NCBI GenBank assembly: GCA_944325305.1
Contig: CALUZO010000005.1
Coordinates: 1-64,000, forward strand
Reading direction: 5' to 3'
Length of the DNA: 64,000 nucleotides
Source of the DNA: an uncultured Rikenellaceae bacterium
GTDB lineage: Bacteria; Bacteroidota; Bacteroidia; Bacteroidales; Rikenellaceae
A program made the translations under genes and the position numbers. Of this stretch, positions 5,642 to 64,000 are shown one piece after another. Under the pieces are notes generated by a model, which was not told where the DNA came from, ran no database searches, and saw only the letters and a program-made list of their open reading frames with translations. Within the stretch, counting starts at the first letter, position 1. Every line of letters starts with the position of its first letter.

Positions 5642-6472
5642 ATGATGGTGGATTATATTGAATTGTCGGTCCCCGTGAGCGATGCCGAACAGGCTGAAAT
5701 ACTGATAGCGGAACTGGCTGAATTCCCTTTCGAGAGTTTTCAGCAGGAAGAGACACAGTTGAAGGCATATATAAGGGAAGATGAACTGGAAAAATGCCGT
5801 GGAGATGTTGCCGAGTTTCTTACGGGTAGGCTGATACGTGGAACTTATACGCGCATCGAAACGGTCAACTGGAATGCCGAGTGGGAAGCCGGGTTCGAAC
5901 CTGTCGATGTCGACGGGAGGTGTCTTATACGGGCGCCGTTCCACGATCGGGCACCGGAAGACTGTCTCGATGTGGTTATAATGCCTAAAATGTCGTTCGG
6001 TACAGGGCATCACGCTACGACATGGCTTATGACGTCGGCATTGTTAGGACATGACTTCAGCGGAATGACCGGTTTGGATATGGGCAGCGGGACAGGTGTA
6101 CTGGCAATAATCGCCGTTATGCGTGGTGCCGTGCATGTCGATGCGGTCGACATCGACGAGTGGTCCTATGAGAATTGTACGGAGAATATTCGTGAAAATG
6201 GCGTGGAACAGCGTATACGTCCGATTCTTGGCGATGCTTCGGCAATAGGCGACGCAAAATATGATTTCATTCTTGCCAACATAAACCGTAATATCCTGTT
6301 GACCGACATGGGCGCTTACGTCGATGCGCTGAACGGCGGCGGGCTGTTGATAATGAGCGGAATACTTGAGGCCGATATTCCTATAATTACCGATAAGGCC
6401 GTCTCGCTGGGTCTGAAACCCCTCGAACAGCACTTGAAAGATGGCTGGGCAGCGTTGGAATTCGGGAAATAG
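5642..6472 (+). CDS. prmA: ribosomal protein L11 methyltransferase
   Basis: PrmA transfers methyl groups from S-adenosylmethionine to ribosomal protein L11. The 276-residue sequence has the small N-terminal substrate-recognition domain (to about residue 95, ending in the WNAEWEAGFEPV signature), the MSFGTGHHATT motif (117-127) typical of PrmA, the SAM-binding motif GLDMGSGTGVLAI (144-156) and the catalytic-loop motif LANINRNIL (211-219). The next codon after the start is also ATG, so the start could be three bases later. It is transcribed divergently from xerD and followed by nadB, which has its own promoter box. Confidence 0.92.
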   Translation: MMVDYIELSVPVSDAEQAEILIAELAEFPFESFQQEETQLKAYIREDELEKCRGDVAEFLTGRLIRGTYTRIETVNWNAEWEAGFEPVDVDGRCLIRAPFHDRAPEDCLDVVIMPKMSFGTGHHATTWLMTSALLGHDFSGMTGLDMGSGTGVLAIIAVMRGAVHVDAVDIDEWSYENCTENIRENGVEQRIRPILGDASAIGDAKYDFILANINRNILLTDMGAYVDALNGGGLLIMSGILEADIPIITDKAVSLGLKPLEQHLKDGWAALEFGK

Positions 6473-8333: not shown

Positions 8334-8485
8334 GTGTGTTATTCGGCACTAAACGGATAATTAGTGACTTCCAAGACATAAAGTAACGGCAAGCTGAACT
8401 CTATGCATATTTATTTTTTCCTCTCCTCCTCAAGTGCGTTTTTTGCTGAAAAGTCGAGGACCTGAAGATGCGAGACCGACATGCC

Positions 8486-8590
8486 GTCGTTTTTCGTCGG
8501 TATGTTCCGGATGTCCGTTCCCATTACCGTGGCGAGAACCTCGAATTGCGTTTCAAGATGCTGGACCTCATTGATTAATTCCACAACGGT
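8486..8590 (+). pseudogene. inverted relic of kdsC
   Basis: Within the 530-base gap between nadB and kdsC, positions 8528-8564 match the complement of the intact kdsC at 9044-9080 at 36 of 37 bases. Similarity continues leftward through an apparent 10-base deletion (CCATTA then CCGTGGCG, where kdsC has ten extra bases) and fades by about 8490. In frame it still reads RGENLELRFKML beside the intact RGESLELRFKML before a stop. The relic runs on the plus strand, opposite to kdsC, so it is a decayed inverted partial duplicate. The right boundary is uncertain. The rest of the gap holds nothing recognisable. Confidence 0.7.
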
Positions 8591-8732
8591 TTACGTAAGA
8601 TATGGATATTGTGCTGAAGCTGAAGCATCCAGTGCAGACTGCCCCATGGATTGTGACATGCGGCAGACCGGATAGTTGGCCGGTGGCATTTGTATTTGCA
8701 ATAGTGATTCTGCCCTCGTTATGATGGTTGAG

Positions 8733-9269
8733 CTACAATGACTTTACTGTGTGGAGTCCTTTCGTGTTTTTTGCCCATTTGTCGTGTGCCCGGAGGACCT
8801 GCTCGATGACATCTCGTACGCATCCCTGCCCACCTTTGAACTGCGAAACATACCGTGATGCTTCGAGTATCTCGCTGACAGCATCTGCCGGACATACCGG
8901 TATTCCGACATGTTTCATCGCGTCGAGATCGGGTATGTCGTCACCCATATACATAACCTCATCCGGACTCAGCGACAGTTCGTCCATGAATTCTTTCAGG
9001 CAAGAGAGTTTGTCCGCAATGTTGGGGTAGTATCTCGTGACACCCAGCATCTTGAAACGCAATTCGAGGCTCTCGCCACGGCCACCTGTGATAATGGCCA
9101 CGTGATATCCGCTACGTATGGCGTAGGTGACGGCATAGCCATCTTTTGAGTTGTATTGTCTGATGAAATCGCCGTTTGTCAGAGGTATGATGCCGCCGTC
9201 GGTAAAAACCCCGTCCACATCGAATACGAATGCCTTTACTTTTGCGATGTCTTCTTTGAAGTTTCCCAT
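8733..9269 (-). CDS. kdsC: 3-deoxy-D-manno-octulosonate 8-phosphate phosphatase (KdsC)
   Basis: KdsC dephosphorylates KDO-8-phosphate in the pathway that makes KDO for lipopolysaccharide. The 178-residue HAD-family protein has motif I DVDGV with nucleophile and acid at D17 and D19, motif II threonine at T61 (IITGGRGES), motif III lysine at K87, and motif IV GDDIPDL around 109-115. It is the normal length for the small C0-type (cap-less, tetrameric) KdsC. Its start lies 34 bases inside the upstream DUF2520 gene, implying translational coupling. lpxB elsewhere in the window belongs to the same envelope pathway. Confidence 0.9.
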   Translation of the reverse strand: MGNFKEDIAKVKAFVFDVDGVFTDGGIIPLTNGDFIRQYNSKDGYAVTYAIRSGYHVAIITGGRGESLELRFKMLGVTRYYPNIADKLSCLKEFMDELSLSPDEVMYMGDDIPDLDAMKHVGIPVCPADAVSEILEASRYVSQFKGGQGCVRDVIEQVLRAHDKWAKNTKGLHTVKSL

Positions 9270-12793: not shown

Positions 12794-14317
12794 TTAAAAT
12801 TTTGAACGCTTTGTGACGTTTTGTGATATTGTCGTGTAATGCCTTGTACTGCAAATGGTTATATATGAGATGACGAGCACTGCATAGCATAAAAAGACAC
12901 CTGCGAGGGAGATGTGTCCTTCAAATATTGCCCATTGTTGTGCTGCGCTCCATTCTACTATTCGGTTCTGAAGATTGGCGGCGGTGTCGAGTATGACGGA
13001 GAACGTATTTTGAAGAATACCGATTGGCGCGATAATCCATATCATGCCAAGCAGTACGATCACGTAGGCCGTCATGATTACGAGAGGTCCTGTAAGGATG
13101 CCGATGATGGGTGAGTTGCCGAACCAGTACGAAACTAACGGAGCCGTTCCGACTGTGGCCGCGAAGCCCACGATTATGGCGCCAGTCACGATATTGAGGA
13201 GTTTGCGTCGTGAGCGCAACGGATCGAACAAATGTCTGTAAAAGATTACGATTGCCAGTACGGCCGAAAACGAAAGCAGAAAACTTGGATCGGAGAGATA
13301 GTTGGGGTTGAGAGCGAGCATGACTACGGCTGTGCCGAGTATTATGTTCATTGTGTTCCGTTGTGACGATGTGGCAAGAGCCAGTTGTGCAAAGCTGGCC
13401 ATGGTTGCCGCGCGTATTACGGAAGGTGACATGCCGGTTGTCAAGGCGTAGAGCCAGATACACAGAATCGCCATTGAATTTTTGACTATGTGTCCGTAAC
13501 GGAACGTAGGTAGCAGGTAGAGCAACAGGTTGATAAGCAGAAACACTATCCCGACGTGGAGTCCCGAGACGGCAAGAATGTGAGCAGAGCCAGATTTGTT
13601 GTATGTCTGACGCATTTCGTTGCTGATGAACCGACGGTCGCCTATGACCATGGCCGATACGACTGCGTGCGATTCGTTGTCCAGAGTCAGGCGGTCGAGG
13701 CGTTGTGCGGCTTTTGAGTGGAGTTGCGAAGCGTAATATACCGGTGTAGTCGATACGTATTGTGCCTCTTTCAGCATGTTGCCGGGTGTGAGGTAGAGGC
13801 GTCTGTGGAATCCGCGCCTGCGCATGAGATTGCCGTAGGACGATCCTGTCGTATCTATGGCGTTCATCCACCCGCGGAATGCTATCTGCATTCCTTGATG
13901 TACGATGTAGCATGTGTCCACATAAAGTTGAATGCTTTCATCGGCGCTCAACCATGGTGCGTTGTCGTCTTTTGCCGTTTTGTAGTAACCGACGGTGGCT
14001 GAAGTACGCTGCCAGCGGCCACGTACGGATGGCTGTTCGTCGATTTGGGCGACGGCGGTAACATACTCGCCGTAAGGAAGCCGGCTTTTGGGAGTTGCGG
14101 CTTCGGATATGGTGAAAAAGAATAATAGAATGCTTGCCCATGCGAGTATGCTTCCGGCCTCATGCTTTTGAAGTATCCACGCCGCAGCCATTGTCGCAAG
14201 ACATGCTGACCCTGTGATGAAGGGATTCGTGTCGAAGAATGCCGACAATGCCAGTCCTGCCATTGCTGGCAGTATTATTTTTACGAACGGAGCCGGAGAG
14301 GTCTCATGGCTATTCAT
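12794..14317 (-). CDS. comEC: ComEC/Rec2 DNA-uptake channel protein
   Basis: A 507-residue polytopic inner-membrane protein of the ComEC/Rec2 family, which moves single-stranded DNA across the cytoplasmic membrane during natural transformation. The N-terminal DUF4131 segment (about 25-180) is followed by the Competence domain (about 210-490) with the signature SGSAHILAVSGLHVGI near 243-258 and SPSVIRAATMASF near 300. The C-terminal metallo-beta-lactamase domain of longer homologues is absent, as in many Bacteroidota versions. A housekeeping dprA is not present nearby; the DprA-like genes at 58-62 kb are on the island. Confidence 0.87.
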   Translation of the reverse strand: MNSHETSPAPFVKIILPAMAGLALSAFFDTNPFITGSACLATMAAAWILQKHEAGSILAWASILLFFFTISEAATPKSRLPYGEYVTAVAQIDEQPSVRGRWQRTSATVGYYKTAKDDNAPWLSADESIQLYVDTCYIVHQGMQIAFRGWMNAIDTTGSSYGNLMRRRGFHRRLYLTPGNMLKEAQYVSTTPVYYASQLHSKAAQRLDRLTLDNESHAVVSAMVIGDRRFISNEMRQTYNKSGSAHILAVSGLHVGIVFLLINLLLYLLPTFRYGHIVKNSMAILCIWLYALTTGMSPSVIRAATMASFAQLALATSSQRNTMNIILGTAVVMLALNPNYLSDPSFLLSFSAVLAIVIFYRHLFDPLRSRRKLLNIVTGAIIVGFAATVGTAPLVSYWFGNSPIIGILTGPLVIMTAYVIVLLGMIWIIAPIGILQNTFSVILDTAANLQNRIVEWSAAQQWAIFEGHISLAGVFLCYAVLVISYITICSTRHYTTISQNVTKRSKF

Positions 14318-55307: not shown

Positions 55308-55350
55308 ATAACTCTAACGAACGTATTAACAGTAAAGTTTTTAGAGTTAT
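55308..55350 (+). promoter_or_regulatory. inverted repeat overlapping the integrase start codon
   Basis: ATAACTCTAA (55308-55317) is complementary to TTAGAGTTAT (55341-55350); the right arm includes the first two bases of the integrase ATG. It could be an operator for autoregulation or an mRNA hairpin that hides the start codon. Confidence 0.5.
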
Positions 55351-56575
55351 GGCAAGAAGCACTTTCAAGGTTCTGTTCTATCTGAAACGACAGGCCGAAC
55401 AGAACGGCAAAGCACCCATCATGGGGCGCATCACCATCAACGGAACCATCTCGCAGTTCAGTTGCAAACTGTCTGTCCCTCCCAAACTGTGGGACACCAA
55501 AGCCAACAAAGCATCGGGCAAAAGCGTCGTAGCCCAGCGTATCAACGAGAAACTGGAAAACATCAAGACCAACATCGGCAAGCAGTACCAGCGTATCTGC
55601 GACCGGGATTCTTACGTCACGGCCGAGAAGGTCAGGAATGCCTGGCTGGGTTTCGGGGACGGATATCAACTCCTGTTACAAACCTTCGACGACTACCTGA
55701 AAGAGTTCGCCGAGAAGCGCGTCGGCAAAGACCGGGCAAAGGGAACCCTCGTGAACTATACCCGTGCCCGCCGTTATCTTGGCGCATTCCTGCAATACGA
55801 ATACAAGCTGGAGGATGTCCCTTTCCGGGAGTTGAAGCGTGAATTTATCGAAAAGTATGTAGTTTACCTTTCGGCTGTTCGTCATATGCTTCCCGGCAGT
55901 ATCCATACTCCGGTCAAAAAACTGAAGCTGATGACCTACACCGCTTTCAAGAACGGCTGGATCACCTCCGATCCGTTTGCCGGATTCCATATCAACGTCA
56001 CCTACCGCGACCGGCGTTTCCTTTCCGAATCGGAACTTCAGGCCGTGATGAATGTCTATGTCCCCAATTACAAGACGGCCATCGTCCGGGACATATTCGT
56101 GTTTTGCTGCTTCACGGGGCTTGCTTATGCCGATGTAAAGAAACTCACTAATGACGATATTCACACGGATGAACAGGGTGATCTGTGGATCGTGGACCAT
56201 CGCCAGAAAACGGGAACGCAGTTTCGGGTCAAGCTGCTGCCGGTGGCCAAACGGCTCGTTGAGAGGTACAGACACTTGCACTTGCCGGGAGGCTGCGTGT
56301 TTCCGGTCAAAAGTCGTAAATCCATGAATATGTCCCTACGACATGTGGCACGCCATGCCGGGTTGTCATTCAATCCGACGATGCATGAAGCAAGGCATAC
56401 CTTCTCGACCACGGTCACCCTCTCGCAGGGTGTTCCGCTGGAGACGGTCAGCAAGATGCTCGGACACAAACACATCACCACCACCCAGATCTACGCCAAA
56501 ATCACCAACGACAAGATCGGTCGTGACATGGACGCCCTAAGCCAAAAGATTGCAGAAAAATTCCCAATAGCATAA
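55349..56575 (+). CDS. int: tyrosine site-specific integrase of a Bacteroidales mobile element
   Basis: A 408-residue integrase of the type carried by Bacteroides conjugative and mobilizable elements. An N-terminal Arm-DNA-binding domain (about 1-95) and a phage-integrase SAM-like domain (about 105-205) precede the catalytic domain. K287 (RQKTG), H346/R349 (HEARHTF), H373 (LGHKH) and Y382 (IYAKI) are present; the first arginine is replaced by A259 in FTGLAYADV, a substitution known in this group (IntDOT also lacks that Arg). The protein is full length and probably active. It marks the window from about 54 kb rightward as an integrative element. Confidence 0.9.
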   Translation: MARSTFKVLFYLKRQAEQNGKAPIMGRITINGTISQFSCKLSVPPKLWDTKANKASGKSVVAQRINEKLENIKTNIGKQYQRICDRDSYVTAEKVRNAWLGFGDGYQLLLQTFDDYLKEFAEKRVGKDRAKGTLVNYTRARRYLGAFLQYEYKLEDVPFRELKREFIEKYVVYLSAVRHMLPGSIHTPVKKLKLMTYTAFKNGWITSDPFAGFHINVTYRDRRFLSESELQAVMNVYVPNYKTAIVRDIFVFCCFTGLAYADVKKLTNDDIHTDEQGDLWIVDHRQKTGTQFRVKLLPVAKRLVERYRHLHLPGGCVFPVKSRKSMNMSLRHVARHAGLSFNPTMHEARHTFSTTVTLSQGVPLETVSKMLGHKHITTTQIYAKITNDKIGRDMDALSQKIAEKFPIA

Positions 56576-56595
56576 TCCGATAAAGAGAACTGACT

Positions 56596-57021
56596 ATGAA
56601 GAAACAGATAGAAGATCTCGGTTCTATTGAGATAACCGATAACGACTAGGGGCCTTGTACGGTTGCAGTCCGACTGGTCGATGGCAATGTCTGGATGACA
56701 CAGAGCCAAATCGCACGGTTGTTCGGCGTGTACGAGGCCGCCGTCCGCAATAATCTGAGAACCGTGTTCAAAAGCGGTATGTTGCGTGAGCGGGACGTAA
56801 CCCATCCTTCCTGGAACGGTCAGAGCGGCTTCGGGACGCTGTATGGGCTCGAATCGATCATCTACATGAGTTTCCGCACCGGAACCTACCGGGCAAAGGC
56901 TTTCAGGGAATGGGTAGTGCATACTCTGAGCGAACATTACCGTCAAGGCAAACCCAAAGAACCCTCCGTGATTCTTGTATATAATTCCGGGGCGGAACGA
57001 TTCGGACAAACCGCGAGCTGA
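56596..57021 (+). pseudogene. RhuM/ORF6N-like gene interrupted by an amber codon
   Basis: Starting at ATG 56596, 20 bases after the integrase, the frame reads MKKQIEDLGSIEITDND, then TAG at 56647-56649, then continues openly as VAVRLVDGNVWMTQSQIARLFGV to 57021. The part after the stop resembles the N-terminal DNA-binding region of RhuM-like proteins (VWMTQSQIARLFGV; YGLESIIYMSFRTGTYRAKAFREWVV). Restart at ATG 56695 would give a 108-residue protein, shorter than typical RhuM. Without the stop the product is 141 residues. Whether it is dead, restarts or is read through cannot be told from sequence. Confidence 0.6.
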
Positions 57022-57495: not shown

Positions 57496-58638
57496 ATGGA
57501 GAACAAACCTTTTATATTCGGCGTTGCGACCTCAGGCGATAACTTTACCGACCGGGAGAAAGAAACAGAACGCCTGCTGTTGAATTTCCGGCATGGTGTA
57601 AATACCGTGCTGATTTCACCCCGTCGCTGGGGTAAAACTTCTTTGGTGCAGAAGGTGTCTCGCCTGGCACAGTCCGATAATTTGAAAATCGTTTATATCG
57701 ACATTTTCTCGTGTCGCAGCGACCGGGATTTTTACGATGCTTTTGCGTCCGCCGTTCTCAAACAGACCTCTTCGAAGGTGGATGAATGGCTGGAGAATAT
57801 CAAACTGTTTCTTTCCCGTATCAGCCCCAGAATTTCGATGGGGCCGGACCCGATGACGGATTTTTCCATATCGCTTGAACTGAATCCCAAGAGCAGCGAC
57901 ATCGACGAAATCCTGCAGCTTCCCGAAAAGATAGCGCAGAAAAAAGGTTATAATATCGTCATCTGCATCGACGAATTTCAGCAGATCGCCGAGTTCAAGG
58001 ATTCCAAGACCTTCCAGAAGCGGCTGCGTTCCGTATGGCAGTTGCAGAAATCGGTCTCTTATTGTTTGTTCGGCAGCAAGAAACATCTGATGAACGAACT
58101 GTTCGAGAAAAAGAGCCTGCCGTTTTACAAGTTCGGCGATGCCATCTATTTGCAGAAGATCGCCACGCCGGATTGGATCGATTACATCTGCGGACGTTTC
58201 GAGGCCACGGGCAAGCAGATTTCAAGAGAACTGGCAGGAAAAATATGTCAAATAGTAGATAATCACTCTTCGTATGTACAGCAGTTGGCATGGTTGGTAT
58301 GGATTCATACTGACAAAGTCGCAACGGAGCAGGATTTCGAGGCAGCCTGTCAGGATATTATCGACCAGAACACGCCGTTGTTCGAGAAGCAGACCGAAAG
58401 CCTTACTACCTATCAGATGAATTTCCTGCGAGCTGTCATAGATGGGGTTCACAGTGGGTTTACCACGCAGGAGGTTTTGCAGAAATACCAGCTCGGCTCG
58501 TCGGCCAATGTCAGCATTGTAAAGCGGGCGTTGGTCAAGAAAGAGCTTATCGAGGTCGAGAAACGCCAGGTGGTAATTCCCGATCCGGTAATGAAAGAGT
58601 GGCTGAAGCGGGAGTTGCACGGAGTATGGGGGCATTAA
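57496..58638 (+). CDS. archaeal-type AAA+ ATPase
   Basis: A 380-residue P-loop ATPase of the archaeal ATPase_2 (STAND-related) type. Residues 5-25 (FIFGVATSGDNFTDREKE) match the family opening, Walker A is SPRRWGKTSLV (41-51), Walker B with the glutamate is IVICIDEFQQI near 151-161, and an arginine-rich sensor region follows (FGSKKHLMNELF). The last 90 residues form a winged-helix-like domain (SLTTYQMNFLRAVIDGVHSG, VSIVKRALVKKELIEVEKRQVVIPDPVMKEWL). Such proteins are frequent in mobile DNA, but their role is unknown. The ATG at 57496 is preferred over an upstream start at 57442, which lies before the promoter -7 box. Confidence 0.83.
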   Translation: MENKPFIFGVATSGDNFTDREKETERLLLNFRHGVNTVLISPRRWGKTSLVQKVSRLAQSDNLKIVYIDIFSCRSDRDFYDAFASAVLKQTSSKVDEWLENIKLFLSRISPRISMGPDPMTDFSISLELNPKSSDIDEILQLPEKIAQKKGYNIVICIDEFQQIAEFKDSKTFQKRLRSVWQLQKSVSYCLFGSKKHLMNELFEKKSLPFYKFGDAIYLQKIATPDWIDYICGRFEATGKQISRELAGKICQIVDNHSSYVQQLAWLVWIHTDKVATEQDFEAACQDIIDQNTPLFEKQTESLTTYQMNFLRAVIDGVHSGFTTQEVLQKYQLGSSANVSIVKRALVKKELIEVEKRQVVIPDPVMKEWLKRELHGVWGH

Positions 58639-58760: not shown

Positions 58761-60104
58761 TCAGTCCCACCAGCAGAGGATATTGTCCTGCAGCAGCCGG
58801 AAGAGGATGCAGAAGGCCTTATTGAAACGGACCTCCTGTTCTTCCCCCAAGTAGAACCCTCCTCCGTGGTGTCGGACTTTGAAACGTTCCTTATTGCGGA
58901 GGTTGACACGGGCCGGTAAGCGTTCCATATCCTCGCCTTCATTCCCTTCTTTGATAATGATCTGCAGCAGCCGGCTTGCCAGTTCCAACTGGGAAAGGAC
59001 ATAGTCGCCATTCATGCAGTGCGAGAAGTGGCGCCAGTAATCGGCCATCCGGTCGATCTTAAACTGGAGAATGGGGAAAATAAATTCCCCGTCGAAGTCC
59101 GATCCGAGACCACCGTTAAAAACAAAAGTTTGCCATGCGGCCATCTCCCGGCGATAGACCAGATTTTGAAATGCCGACCAGTCGTCCTTCGACATGCCGT
59201 GCCTGCACCATAGCTTGTATTCTTGATATTCGGCTTCCATCTCTTTTTCAAAAACCTCTGCCGAGCGGTCTTCCGTAGCGGCAGACTTGTCACGCATATC
59301 GTTTGCATTTTCAGTCCGATCCCAATGAATATTGTTGGCAGCCCTGAAGGCATAGGACATTCCCTCCCTGGCGGGATGTCTGGCCCATTCTTCCATCTCT
59401 TTGGCCCGCTCCTCTGCCTGCATGCGCTGCCACTCCTCCTCCAGCTGCAGCAGGCGACGCTCATTCTCCGCCGTCATGGGTGCCGTTGCATCAAAAATAT
59501 CATCGGCACCGCCGCCCGTCAGCAGGGATTGGCAGGCCGGGCCATCGTTGCTGCCACAGGTAAAAAGCCTTTTCCCGAATTTCCGGGCGATTTTCATTGC
59601 ATACCTCGTATTGCTGCTCGGGGTATGTTGAATGACGATAATCGGATTGGCCAAAGCGACTTGCAAACGGATGCAGGCCTTCGTATGCGACGGAGAGGAC
59701 TTCCCTTCCGGCGGCTGCACGGAGAGCAACAGGCCGCCATTGCTCAGAATATCCTCGCAAAGGTATTGTTTCGTCATGGAACCTATCCGATTCAACCCGG
59801 ACGCAAGAAGGACAATGCACTTGTTGCCGCGAAGTGTGGCGCCCCGAAGCAAAGCAATGTCGGCAACCAGTCCGACCATGACATAGTCGTACGCCACACA
59901 GTTGAAGCCCATGTCGTACATCCGTACGAAATCATTCTGATCGTCCGTTCGCGCGGCTGCTACTGCCACTAACCGGGGATGTTTCAACAACCCGACATCT
60001 CCTTGTGCCCAGATTTTCTGCGGCATCTCCTTGCCCATAGCACGGAATATCCACGGATAACCCGGGTCGGAAGGTTCGAGCGTAATGATTTTATTATTTG
60101 CCAT
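58761..60104 (-). CDS. divergent DprA/SLOG-fold protein with helical C-terminal extension
   Basis: A 447-residue protein whose first 205 residues follow the DprA/SMF layout step by step: YPWIFRAMGKEMPQKIWAQGDVGLL (16-40), VAVAAARTDD at the GSR position, LRGNKCIVLLASGLNRIGS (91-109), LCEDILSNGGLLLSVQPPEG (115-134), NPIIVIQHTPSSNTRYAM (153-170) and KFGKRLFTC. The nucleotide-binding consensus is eroded: AAR replaces GSR and the SGLARGID stretch reads VAYDYVMVGLVADIAL. Residues 210-447 form a charged helical, partly coiled-coil region of no known family. It may have lost DNA or nucleotide binding as in DprA and gained another role. A promoter box lies at 60127. Confidence 0.72.
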   Translation of the reverse strand: MANNKIITLEPSDPGYPWIFRAMGKEMPQKIWAQGDVGLLKHPRLVAVAAARTDDQNDFVRMYDMGFNCVAYDYVMVGLVADIALLRGATLRGNKCIVLLASGLNRIGSMTKQYLCEDILSNGGLLLSVQPPEGKSSPSHTKACIRLQVALANPIIVIQHTPSSNTRYAMKIARKFGKRLFTCGSNDGPACQSLLTGGGADDIFDATAPMTAENERRLLQLEEEWQRMQAEERAKEMEEWARHPAREGMSYAFRAANNIHWDRTENANDMRDKSAATEDRSAEVFEKEMEAEYQEYKLWCRHGMSKDDWSAFQNLVYRREMAAWQTFVFNGGLGSDFDGEFIFPILQFKIDRMADYWRHFSHCMNGDYVLSQLELASRLLQIIIKEGNEGEDMERLPARVNLRNKERFKVRHHGGGFYLGEEQEVRFNKAFCILFRLLQDNILCWWD

Positions 60105-60126
60105 AGGTGTTGAATTTTGGTTTCCG

Positions 60127-60169
60127 ACAAAAATAACAGCCGCTTATGCTGAATTGCAGCATAAGCGGC
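60127..60169 (-). promoter_or_regulatory. promoter with 13-bp hairpin for divergent SLOG gene
   Basis: The minus strand carries TATTTTTGT (60127-60135, exact TAnnTTTGY) 20 bases before the ATG. A perfect 13-base inverted repeat (60139-60151 with 60157-60169) covers the space between -7 and -33 positions. It may terminate the DUF6557 transcript arriving from the right, act as an operator, or both. Confidence 0.5.
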
Positions 60170-60202
60170 CGGTTCTTGCATTTTCCTGTATTTTTCGCAG
60201 GT

Positions 60203-60658
60203 TCAATCGCGCAGGGAATATCCGTTGCAAGAGAACCGCTTCTTGACGTTGGCTTTTACCATCTTCTCCGAACCTCCGTAGTAGGTAATCTCCCATAGAA
60301 GTCCGGCCGTCAGTTCTTGCGGCGAAATCCGCACATCGGCATCCACGATAATCTCCATCCCCAAAATTTCGGGCCACGACGTGTGAAGCGCTACAGGGCC
60401 GATCGGGCGGTCGTCTACCTTATCACAGACGAGGCAGTTCATGTCAACCATCGGGTTGCACCCTTCCCAACGGCAATTCAGGCAGATGTAATAACCGGAC
60501 GGTTTATCGTTCAACTTCCGAATCTTATAGTAAGTTTCTCTCCATCCGTCCATGTTGATAGGGCTGGCAGATTTGGGCTCATTGTTTTGCCACAAGGCGG
60601 TAAATATCGGATAAATTTCAGCAAAATCGTATTGCATGAGTAGTTTGTGGAATGTCAT
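60203..60658 (-). CDS. DUF6557-family protein
   Basis: A 151-residue protein resembling the Bacteroidota DUF6557 family: the opening TFHKLLMQYDFAEIYPIFTALW, GWRETYYKIRKLNDKPSGYYICLN and the ending LGMEIIVDADVRISPQELTAGLLWEITYYGGSEKMV match that family's layout as I remember it. The middle has a CxxC-type pair (YYICLNCRWEGC, NCLVCDK) that could hold a metal, which ordinary members need not have. Function unknown. The frame extends to 60736, but MTFHKLL is the typical family start. It lies between the two SLOG-type genes, same strand as the left one. Confidence 0.62.
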   Translation of the reverse strand: MTFHKLLMQYDFAEIYPIFTALWQNNEPKSASPINMDGWRETYYKIRKLNDKPSGYYICLNCRWEGCNPMVDMNCLVCDKVDDRPIGPVALHTSWPEILGMEIIVDADVRISPQELTAGLLWEITYYGGSEKMVKANVKKRFSCNGYSLRD

Positions 60659-60822
60659 ACCTATTTGAATTCGATGAAAAGTTGTCTTGCAGGACAACCG
60701 GCAACACAAAGTTCGCCGCAGGATATGCCAAATCAAGGCTAAATAGAATTATAACCGGATGTGTTCTGATTTGGCAGAGGTGAAAAATACATTTGTCTTG
60801 AAGTCGTAAATTATTTGGAAAA

Positions 60823-61755
60823 ATGAATGAACGGGTAAACAAGATGAATGAACTGCAAGAGCAGCATAAGAAACGAATGGCAGAGTGGCTGGCATCCGTG
60901 CCGCATGTAGATGAATTGCTGGCTCTGCAATTGCAGGGAACTATCCCGAAGCAAATGCCGGGAGATGTTCAGACAAACGGTTATTTGAGGGAGATTGCCC
61001 AAAAATCGCGCCGCGAATTGGACAAGGCCCGATATATATTGGAAAGGCAGGCGAAAGCCGGCGTCGAGACCATTCCGTATTATGCCGATGAATATCCGCG
61101 CCATTTCTGCGGTTTGGGAAATGATGCACCTCCTCTCATCCATGTGTTGGGAAATAGGGAACTGTTGAACCGAGAAGACAATGTGATAATCATAGGCTCC
61201 CGTGCTGCAGATAGGGATGGACTGGCTGCGGCAAGCCGCATGGCCGAGCAAATAGGTGGTGCTGGACATGTCGTTATCAGCGGACTGGCCGAGGGGTGCG
61301 ATACGGCCGCTCATCGCGGCTGCCTTGATGCGGGCGGACAGACGGTTGCCATCGTGGCGTCGGGTCTGGATATCGTTTATCCCAAATCGAATAAGGCCTT
61401 GCAGGACGAAATTCTGGCAAATGGAGGGGCTGTTCTGTCGGAGCATCCCTTCGGCGTGAAAGCCAACCCGACGAGGTTGGTTGCCCGTTGCCGGATGCAG
61501 GTGGTGTTGACCCAATCCGTTATCGTGGCCCAATGTCCCGTGGTCAGCGGAACCATGTATGCCGTGCATTTTGCCCAGGAATATAACGAGTACTCCTACG
61601 ACGGATGGGAGAGCAGTATTTATGCGGTGTCGTTCGCCGAGTGGAACGAACGGAACTCCGGAAATGAATATCTGTTGGACAGCGGCCGGGCGGTTCCGAT
61701 TATTCCGGGGCAGCGGCTTGCATTGGATGACTGCAATATGCTTGTGTTGGAATAA
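60823..61755 (+). CDS. DprA-like SLOG-fold protein
   Basis: A 310-residue DprA/SMF-family protein. After a helical N-terminal region (1-80) the core is canonical: YYADEYPRHFCGLGNDAPPLIHVLG (86-110), VIIIGSRAAD (121-130), VISGLAEGCDTAAHRGCL (151-168), VAIVASGLDIVYPKSNKAL (175-193), ILANGGAVLSEHPFG (197-211). DprA loads RecA on incoming single-stranded DNA, while other SLOG proteins bind nucleotide-type ligands; the usual RNR motif before the last strands is replaced by ARCRM and the C-terminal winged helix is missing, so a non-housekeeping role is likely. ATG 60844 is an alternative start. It heads a rightward set with the 62-63 kb genes. Confidence 0.82.
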   Translation: MNERVNKMNELQEQHKKRMAEWLASVPHVDELLALQLQGTIPKQMPGDVQTNGYLREIAQKSRRELDKARYILERQAKAGVETIPYYADEYPRHFCGLGNDAPPLIHVLGNRELLNREDNVIIIGSRAADRDGLAAASRMAEQIGGAGHVVISGLAEGCDTAAHRGCLDAGGQTVAIVASGLDIVYPKSNKALQDEILANGGAVLSEHPFGVKANPTRLVARCRMQVVLTQSVIVAQCPVVSGTMYAVHFAQEYNEYSYDGWESSIYAVSFAEWNERNSGNEYLLDSGRAVPIIPGQRLALDDCNMLVLE

Positions 61756-62076: not shown

Positions 62077-62412
62077 ATGAAGCAGACAGTTATATCCTTA
62101 GATCTGGAGGATATTTTCACAATGATGGGCGAAAGCACCACAAAATTGTTTTCCGTGTGCAGATTGTCTGCCGATACGGGAACTGACCTCTGTGCTGAAA
62201 TCCGGACACATTTTGCCAAACAAGAAATCAGGCCTTGTGGGCGTATGGCAGTGCGTATAACCTCGGCTTCGGGGTTTACACTGGATGAAATCCAACAAAT
62301 ATTAAGTACCATACGCGACCTTTGCTCGGAAGATCTGATATGGGGTTTCGAGTCGGATGATACAACCGATCGAATCACGACAGACATGCTTTTTGAGGTA
62401 GAACCATCATAA
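62077..62412 (+). CDS. small protein resembling the FtsZ C-terminal domain
   Basis: A 111-residue protein without recognised full-length family. Residues about 54-105 (CGRMAVRITSASG, TLDEIQQILSTIRDLC, EDLIWGFESDDTTD) follow the pattern of the FtsZ C-terminal subdomain, where a strand ending in NITGG is followed by a helix starting L-E-E and a strand IIFGxxxDD. The GTP-binding half is not present. It ends 9 bases before the exonuclease gene, so the two are probably cotranslated. It could be a partner or a decoy of a tubulin-like or SLOG protein, but this is speculation. Confidence 0.55.
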   Translation: MKQTVISLDLEDIFTMMGESTTKLFSVCRLSADTGTDLCAEIRTHFAKQEIRPCGRMAVRITSASGFTLDEIQQILSTIRDLCSEDLIWGFESDDTTDRITTDMLFEVEPS

Positions 62413-62421
62413 CGGAATAAC

Positions 62422-62913
62422 ATGAATGATTTTGCGGCAATAGATTTTGAAACGGCCAACAGCCACCGCGAAAGCGTATGCAGCGTTGGGATTGTAATAG
62501 TAAAAAATCAGAAGATATCGGACACGTTTTATGAGTTGATTCGCCCAGCCCCGAATTATTATTGCGACTGGACCACGGAAATTCATGGTTTGACTCATCG
62601 CGATACGGACCAGGCCGATCCTTTTCCTGTGGTATGGCAGAAAATAGCCCCGGCTCTCACGGGTTTGCCGTTGGTAGCCCATAACAGTCCGTTCGATGAA
62701 AGTTGTCTGCGGAGTGTTTTTGCATATTACAGAATGCCTTATCCTGATTATGAATTTTTCTGTACGTGCCGACAATCGCGCAAAGTATTTCCGGAACTAC
62801 CTGACCACCGACTGGATACGGTTGCCGGACACATCGGGTTCGATCTGAAGAATCACCATCACGCCTTGGCCGATGCATTGGCTTGTGCCGAAATAGCGAA
62901 AATAATTCTGTGA
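62422..62913 (+). CDS. DnaQ-like 3'-5' exonuclease
   Basis: A 163-residue DEDDh exonuclease of the DnaQ/RNase T superfamily, degrading DNA or RNA 3' ends with two metal ions. All catalytic residues are seen: D8 and E10 in AIDFETAN, D92 in AHNSPFDESCL, H147 and D151 in HHHALADALA. The EIHGLTHRD block near 53-61 is also canonical. It is a bare nuclease domain without polymerase or helicase fusion. Coupled to the FtsZ-C-like gene, downstream of the DprA-like gene. Confidence 0.87.
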   Translation: MNDFAAIDFETANSHRESVCSVGIVIVKNQKISDTFYELIRPAPNYYCDWTTEIHGLTHRDTDQADPFPVVWQKIAPALTGLPLVAHNSPFDESCLRSVFAYYRMPYPDYEFFCTCRQSRKVFPELPDHRLDTVAGHIGFDLKNHHHALADALACAEIAKIIL

Positions 62914-62995: not shown

Positions 62996-63247
62996 ATGGC
63001 AAACTTCTATTGTGAATACTGTGGACAAAAGTTTTCCTCAGTATCGTCCCTGACCGCAACCAACTGTTCGCGACATCCTAACGGCCCATTAAAAGGCAGG
63101 CATAAACTCTATGAAGGGAGTGAGAAGAGTCGATATACCTGTAAATACTGCGGGCAATCGTTCAATAGCATTTCCTCGATGACAGCTACTAATTGTGCGC
63201 GACACCCGAATGGTCCTCTAAAGGGTCGGCATGCTCCGGCTTTGTAA
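62996..63247 (+). CDS. tandem zinc-finger miniprotein
   Basis: An 83-residue protein made of two near-identical 31-residue units joined by KLYEGSEKSR. Each has C-x2-C (C6/C9 and C49/C52), an SS/NS...TATNC stretch with a third cysteine (C24, C67) and H27/H70 in the RHPNGPLKGRH block, so each unit should bind one zinc. The repeat period is 43 residues. Similar tandem fingers occur in other Bacteroidota, with unknown function; nucleic-acid or protein binding is plausible. The gene sits 80 bases after the exonuclease and precedes a convergent terminator. Confidence 0.8.
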   Translation: MANFYCEYCGQKFSSVSSLTATNCSRHPNGPLKGRHKLYEGSEKSRYTCKYCGQSFNSISSMTATNCARHPNGPLKGRHAPAL

Positions 63248-63261
63248 CCATGTTGTAACCA

Positions 63262-63296
63262 AAGAAGAATCCGGCTTATTCAGCCGGATTCTTCTT
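63262..63296. terminator. terminator between zinc-finger gene and edge gene
   Basis: A perfect 15-base-pair stem (63262-63276 with 63282-63296, loop TATTC). It lies between converging genes and includes the stop codon of the minus-strand gene. Confidence 0.75.
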
Positions 63297-64000
63297 ATGG
63301 GATGCTTGTTCTATAAATTCCGCAAATTCCGTTTCTACTTGTGAGCAGAATTGGTCTGCCAACGATTTGCCGGAAGATTTGTCAATGTTGAAGTTGAAAC
63401 AGTAAAATCGCTTTCGATCACCATGTTCTTTTTCCATGTGTGTAGTGCGTTCTTTGTATTCCCAATCCTCGTTCATCAGATAAATGTCATACTCTGTCGA
63501 ACTACCTCCTCGATACCATTGCAGATGCAAAGAGTGGCCGTTCTTCGTATGATAGACAAAATGGATATTCAAATCGCCCCAGAATACGACATCTTTGTCA
63601 CCATATTCGTCCTTTTCTATGTCTATCTTCTTGTTCCAATCTGTGACAAGTTCTATTTTATTGTTTTTCAGCAATTCATTCAGACATTGGTCACGTTTTT
63701 CATAATTCAACATGACTCCGTATTTCCTTCCACAGTAGTATAAAGAATCATGAGGGTATCGTATGTACATATCCTGACCTTGGGAGTTATCCTTTACAAG
63801 ATGGTTGATCAAGGATTCGCTGGACAATAGCCGCAGCCGTCTGTCTAGCTTCCGCTCTGTCGAATGGCCTTCTCCCATCAACAGATGGTGAACCGGCTCT
63901 GCATATACATATTTGTTGTCTCCAACCACCTTTGTCAGAATCTGATCTTTCCAGGTATTTGCTTTACCGTTGAATATTTTGGCATCCTTATTGAATTGTG
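63276..64000 (-). CDS. unrecognised protein, 5' end beyond the window
   Basis: The frame is open from the stop at 63276 to the right edge, so the visible 241 codons are a C-terminal part. A GTG at 63929 could start a 217-residue form, but the upstream codons (reading FNGKANTWKDQILTKV) look coding, so the gene probably begins outside. Visible stretches are hydrophilic with many Asp, Glu, Lys, Tyr; no signal peptide, membrane segment or known motif is seen in this part. A Trp/Tyr-rich beta-like middle (VVFWGDLNIHFVYHTKNGHSLHLQWYRGG) suggests a folded soluble domain. Function unknown. Confidence 0.6.
   Translation of the reverse strand, partial: QFNKDAKIFNGKANTWKDQILTKVVGDNKYVYAEPVHHLLMGEGHSTERKLDRRLRLLSSESLINHLVKDNSQGQDMYIRYPHDSLYYCGRKYGVMLNYEKRDQCLNELLKNNKIELVTDWNKKIDIEKDEYGDKDVVFWGDLNIHFVYHTKNGHSLHLQWYRGGSSTEYDIYLMNEDWEYKERTTHMEKEHGDRKRFYCFNFNIDKSSGKSLADQFCSQVETEFAEFIEQASHKKNPAE

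Follow-up and report, generated by a model that had tools for sequence, protein, structure and literature searches.

An eroded DprA-type SLOG protein with a swappable C-terminal domain in WYL-associated islands of Rikenellaceae

In the genome of an uncultured Rikenellaceae bacterium, two genes for DprA-type proteins lie within 3 kb of each other on opposite strands, one with its SLOG motifs intact and the other with an eroded ligand site. Why is the eroded protein kept, and does it work with its intact neighbour? The window analysed, a stretch of 64,000 nucleotides, belongs to contig C5 (77,779 bp) of a 1.95 Mb genome that is 83% complete; the island's closest named relatives are uncultured Bacteroidales/Alistipes MAGs. 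The left gene (58761..60104, minus strand, 447 aa) and the right gene (60823..61755, plus strand, 310 aa) are divergent, with about 0.7 kb between them. Both match PF02481 (DNA_processg_A; 9.9e-15 and 1.2e-45, respectively), and the coordinates given for the pair in the preliminary description, made from the letters alone, proved exact. Their open reading frames (447 and 310 codons) exceed the longest random stop-free run, 236 codons, in sixty simulated 64-kb sequences of the same composition.

Between the two genes lies, as had been reported, a DUF6557 gene (60203..60658, minus strand, 151 aa; PF20194, 8.7e-10), and the gap separating it from the left gene harbors a terminator-like hairpin (60137..60171, minus strand) with a 15-bp stem and a T-rich tail. 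An AAA ATPase gene (ATPase_2; 57496..58638, plus strand; PF01637, 9.7e-10) converges with the left gene. Downstream of the right gene are found a probable stand-alone FtsZ C-terminal domain (62077..62412, plus strand, 111 aa), for which the evidence is weak (a match to the NCBIfam ftsZ model over profile positions 209-309 at E 0.08, and one alignment); a DnaQ-type 3'-5' exonuclease (62422..62913, plus strand; PF00929, 2.7e-19); an 83-aa protein with a duplicated C2H2 zinc finger (62996..63247, plus strand), which recurs in several such islands (homologs at L034, L035 and L063); and the 3' part of a GmrSD-like (DUF262) gene (63276..64000, minus strand; PF03235, 3.8e-17), which extends to contig position 65843 and is followed by a second GmrSD-like gene. 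No match to the Bacteroidetes-type promoter pattern was found near the genes of this stretch, nor any integron-like cassette repeats in the intergenic gaps.

The right protein matches PF02481 over residues 78-288 with 155.8 bits, against a gathering threshold of 29.6, and keeps the motifs GSR, SGLAEGCDTAAH, GLDIVYP, LSE and SGT. Neither it nor the left protein has a winged-helix Pfam match. Its earlier portrayal as an intact SLOG protein devoid of a winged helix stands; the accompanying claim that it lacks the RNR motif needs correction, the position being RCR, with the middle residue alone changed, and close intact relatives having RNR or RTR. To note, a canonical 365-aa dprA sits on contig C18 of the same genome as a third DprA-like gene, and the right gene is thus not its only dprA. 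With DprA, the island proteins share the SLOG Rossmann fold and the right protein shares GSR, SGLAxGxD and LSE. They differ from it in lacking the winged helix and in remaining below the TIGR00732 equivalog cut-off of 191.15 bits (134.6 and 47.4 bits). They also form a separate clade: in the maximum-likelihood tree the left and right proteins and the SLOGs of four further genomes (G134, G175, G184 and G197) group separately from housekeeping DprAs (UFBoot 95). Close to the right-type SLOG of G184 are ADP-ribosylglycohydrolase-like and macro-domain-like genes, named by eye (L042:1308-2360 and 5693-6094).

The left protein departs further from DprA, having lost the ligand motifs and carrying a new C-terminal domain (CTD). 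Its SLOG part (aa 1-200; 59505..60104, minus strand) matches PF02481 over residues 3-183 with 54.7 bits, above the same threshold of 29.6. In an alignment with housekeeping DprA and intact relatives, GSR is replaced by AAR, SGLAxGxD by VGLVA---D, GLDxxYP by SGLNRIGS, LSE by LSV and ARNRI by ACIRL. The loss of SGLARGID noted earlier is confirmed, and that of GSR in part, as the G and S are gone and the arginine is retained. Judged by these motifs, ligand binding would have been lost. The AlphaFold (AF2) model has a mean pLDDT of 63.5, with values mostly of 58-89 in the N-terminal domain, where a SLOG fold is still predicted; in the PDB it matches ShosA (8zva) and DprA (3uqz) best, with E-values of 1e-9 to 1e-10, in agreement with the fold outline having been kept. 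The gain of some 240 residues also holds: the CTD (aa 205-447; 58761..59492, minus strand) is predicted to be helical with modest confidence.

The same tree places the left protein and its ortholog in G179 beside the intact SLOG of G175, with split supports of 100 and 91. This indicates that the left protein descends from an intact island SLOG and not from housekeeping DprA, and an origin as an eroded housekeeping dprA copy is ruled out by it. The G179 protein, 52% identical, is the only other left-type protein (SLOG plus CTD) among the 268 genomes of the family surveyed; it is eroded differently, with GSR kept and SGLAxGxDxAxH deleted, and no separate intact island SLOG accompanies it.

Selection was estimated against locus L063 (CASGCS010000020.1), whose genes are arranged identically and whose DNA is 94-95% identical. 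Omega is 0.25 [0.14-0.44] for the left gene, 0.20 [0.05-0.57] for its eroded SLOG part, 0.07 for the CTD core (aa 300-447) and 0.14 for the right gene. Purifying selection thus acts on both genes and extends to the eroded domain, in a comparison of small numbers: a single close pair, with 15 changes in the N-terminal domain (6 nonsynonymous and 9 synonymous).

The CTD is a module that is swapped among partners: it is carried by SLOG in the left-type proteins and by an FtsK_gamma winged helix in four genomes (G032, G064, G245 and G474), and has neither partner in G173. The FtsK_gamma-CTD proteins have a CTD homologous to that of the left protein (39-41% identical); they differ in their N-terminal module, which is not a SLOG, and they adjoin a shrunken DnaE. 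Across 84,980 species genomes, scanning with the CTD returned ten loci, all in Bacteroidales-type genomes; within the order, a CTD profile applied to 393 genomes matched in only three, all at known loci. The CTD has no Pfam family and no PDB match by sequence or fold. PHROG 8579 matches its core weakly (E 0.007, 3 of 6 members); the viral contigs, phages and plasmids searched contain no CTD relatives, the phage matches (E 2-10) being at chance level and the single plasmid match, from Deinococcus, spanning the SLOG part only. The CTD loci adjoin shrunken paralogs of DnaE, FtsK, DnaB or FtsZ: the CTD protein is intact at eight loci, of which seven have a further shrunken core paralog close by, and the eighth, L063, is cut by the contig end.

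Contig C5 itself continues in this manner past the window, with the two GmrSD-like genes, WG-repeat, WYL and DUF6557 genes, a divergent FtsZ GTPase domain (PF00091, 9.9e-10; 76523-77329) and a gene reduced to the DnaB C-terminal domain (77342-77779), whose DLRESG region is eroded and which is cut short by the end of the contig. Canonical copies of FtsZ, DnaB and FtsK are encoded elsewhere in the genome. The GmrSD pair and the WYL regulator, together with a PLD-like protein recognized by eye in relatives, bear out the defence-like setting proposed in the preliminary description. WYL proteins of the island type occur in 49 of the 268 family genomes, and around their genes recur DnaE-like proteins of ~360 aa, FtsK motor fragments, stand-alone FtsK_gamma, FtsZ-like proteins and DnaB C-terminal domains. 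Shrunken core paralogs are enriched near WYL genes: they are present in 9 of 20 WYL regions (346 kb), picked by WYL similarity score alone, and in none of 20 control regions (398 kb) from related genomes (Fisher p = 0.0012), in a small comparison designed after the pattern had been noticed. In the remaining 11 WYL regions, such paralogs were undetected.

The mini-DnaEs (~360-375 aa; L036:7796-8908, L038:6530-7657 and L100-L106) usually come directly after a small FtsK_gamma gene. Ten of them align with two parts of DnaE, skipping ~200 residues of the palm, and have lost PDIDIDF; omega among the four compared pairwise is 0.11-0.15, which points to strong purifying selection. The mini-DnaEs, like the left protein, thus appear to have lost a ligand or active site while purifying selection persists. 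The FtsZ-like proteins near WYL genes (268-302 aa; the contig C5 copy, also numbered L043:16524-17330, L079:7837-8718 and L099:5969-6877) are without the GTP signature GGGTGTG, the evidence here being motif loss only, and a copy in G179 (L034, about 8386-8888) is a pseudogene adjoining the left-type gene. A further gene limited to the DnaB C-terminal domain is found at L035:4593-5495. Death is not universal among these paralogs, because the FtsK forms mostly retain Walker A and the DnaB form of G173 keeps its P-loop and looks catalytically intact.

Do the left and right proteins act together? The preliminary description had proposed a sensor plus a non-binding partner or effector, with the DUF6557 protein between them. 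In such a scheme the signal bound by the right SLOG would be a nucleic acid or a nucleotide, and this SLOG would form a hetero-oligomer with the non-binding left protein, the CTD being the effector. In both the window and L063 the two genes are intact neighbours under selection, both proteins come from the same SLOG clade, and SLOG domains often oligomerise. However, L063, some 95% identical, is the sole relative with both genes: among the 268 family genomes the left type occurs alone in G179, the right type alone in G134, G175 and G184, with a frameshifted right-type copy in G172, and elsewhere the CTD occurs with FtsK_gamma or by itself. DUF6557 is dispensable, having lost 316 bp including its start in L063, where the left and right genes are intact, and is separated from the left gene by the terminator; a left/right/DUF6557 operon is ruled out by this deletion, the terminator and the divergent genes. 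We therefore consider a fixed pair unlikely, and the right gene is best explained as an intact SLOG that belongs to the left protein's clade and was acquired separately, an independent unit rather than an obligate partner. The locus varies among close relatives: the left gene is truncated in L064, and in L071 and L072 the left, DUF6557 and right genes are all lost, leaving short remnants. The AAA ATPase gene stays in place there and is the most stable neighbour (94% in L071/L072, 88% in L064; omega 0.04). Absences may represent assembly gaps, because the MAG contigs are fragmentary. These losses, together with the frameshifted SLOG of G172, would suit functionless copies decaying in a variable region, yet the omega values (0.20-0.25 for the left gene, 0.14 for the right), the full-length reading frames in two genomes and the conservation of the CTD and mini-DnaE families make mere decay highly improbable.

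Known DprA-like defence proteins offer another comparison. In shosTA, syrTA and rqlHI, DprA homologs are antitoxins to phosphoribosyltransferase toxins (PMC9122126). The island resembles ShosA and PsyrA in its DprA-like SLOG, its defence-like context and the fold match to 8zva, which is the top PDB match of the left model; the right protein matches the PADLOC ShosA (1e-52) and PsyrA (3e-28) models. A remnant of such a toxin-antitoxin system, with DprA-like antitoxins that outlived their phosphoribosyltransferase toxin, is nonetheless very unlikely. Housekeeping DprA scores better on the same ShosA model (5.6e-58), so the profile is unspecific and does not assign the right protein to ShosTA; none of the five phosphoribosyltransferases of the genome is on contig C5, which has no PF00156 match, and the locus is not ShosTA since no such toxin is near. 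Membership by profile was rejected on both counts. The left protein differs further by its eroded ligand site and its CTD, of a kind that the ShosA match does not have, the aligned part being the SLOG. The island proteins, the left one included, could instead be induced by infection and enter mixed assemblies with the host's own replication, division or recombination complexes, which they would poison, an abortive infection with no decoy role. The shrunken paralogs lose active sites and keep interaction outlines, and WYL regulators adjoin them, as this would predict; the left SLOG is distant from housekeeping DprA, which makes mixed assembly with the latter less likely. Taken as the whole account, dominant-negative poisoning seems improbable.

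The reading that we favour, tentatively and with somewhat less than even confidence, is that the left protein is a SLOG pseudo-sensor, dead to its ligand, which acts as bait or adaptor within a WYL-regulated defence set of decoys or dominant-negative proteins, and that the right protein is independent of it. The N-terminal domain would have lost nucleotide or ssDNA binding while keeping its fold and protein surfaces, and would probably be what the helical CTD, which may be an output or assembly module, uses as its bait or adaptor. Judging by its position, the WYL protein may regulate this hypervariable Rikenellaceae island, for which we infer an anti-phage function. The dead or truncated DnaE, FtsZ, DnaB and FtsK paralogs would most likely be decoys or dominant-negative partners of phage-attacked proteins, and phage interference or induction of the island would lead the infected cell to stop. 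The loss of the left gene in the close relatives L064, L071 and L072 speaks against this bait or adaptor reading. Moreover, as the left SLOG stems from the island SLOG clade, it is not the direct housekeeping DprA copy expected by a simple decoy model.

A broader proposal would make these loci a previously undescribed class of Rikenellaceae island, in which WYL regulators control shrunken, often catalytically dead paralogs of proteins for host replication, division and recombination, some of them fused to the CTD, which serve as protein decoys and so reveal when a phage takes over the host machinery; we regard it as doubtful. Decoy logic has a nucleotide-level precedent in bacterial immunity, Panoptes, which employs decoy cyclic nucleotides (PMC12657218, PMC12409349). 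As there, the decoy would be disturbed by phage counter-defence; unlike there, the island's decoys would be proteins, a role that we infer for them. No report of protein decoys of this kind was found in the literature searched. If the dead paralogs are decoys, they would constitute a protein-level bacterial counterpart to plant immunity with its integrated decoys, and the imitated set (DnaE, FtsZ, DnaB, FtsK and a DprA-like SLOG) would mark the host targets of gut Bacteroidales phages. Even without a decoy role, a SLOG that is under selection and apparently ligand-dead, joined to a new and swappable CTD, is directly testable.

There are two minor features besides. At 55349-57021, a Bacteroidetes-type tyrosine recombinase is followed by a truncated RhuM/PDC-S05-like ORF, possibly a mobile-element edge. 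A 203-nt direct repeat, 94% identical (L043:11459-11661 and 13705-13907), duplicates part of the WYL gene.
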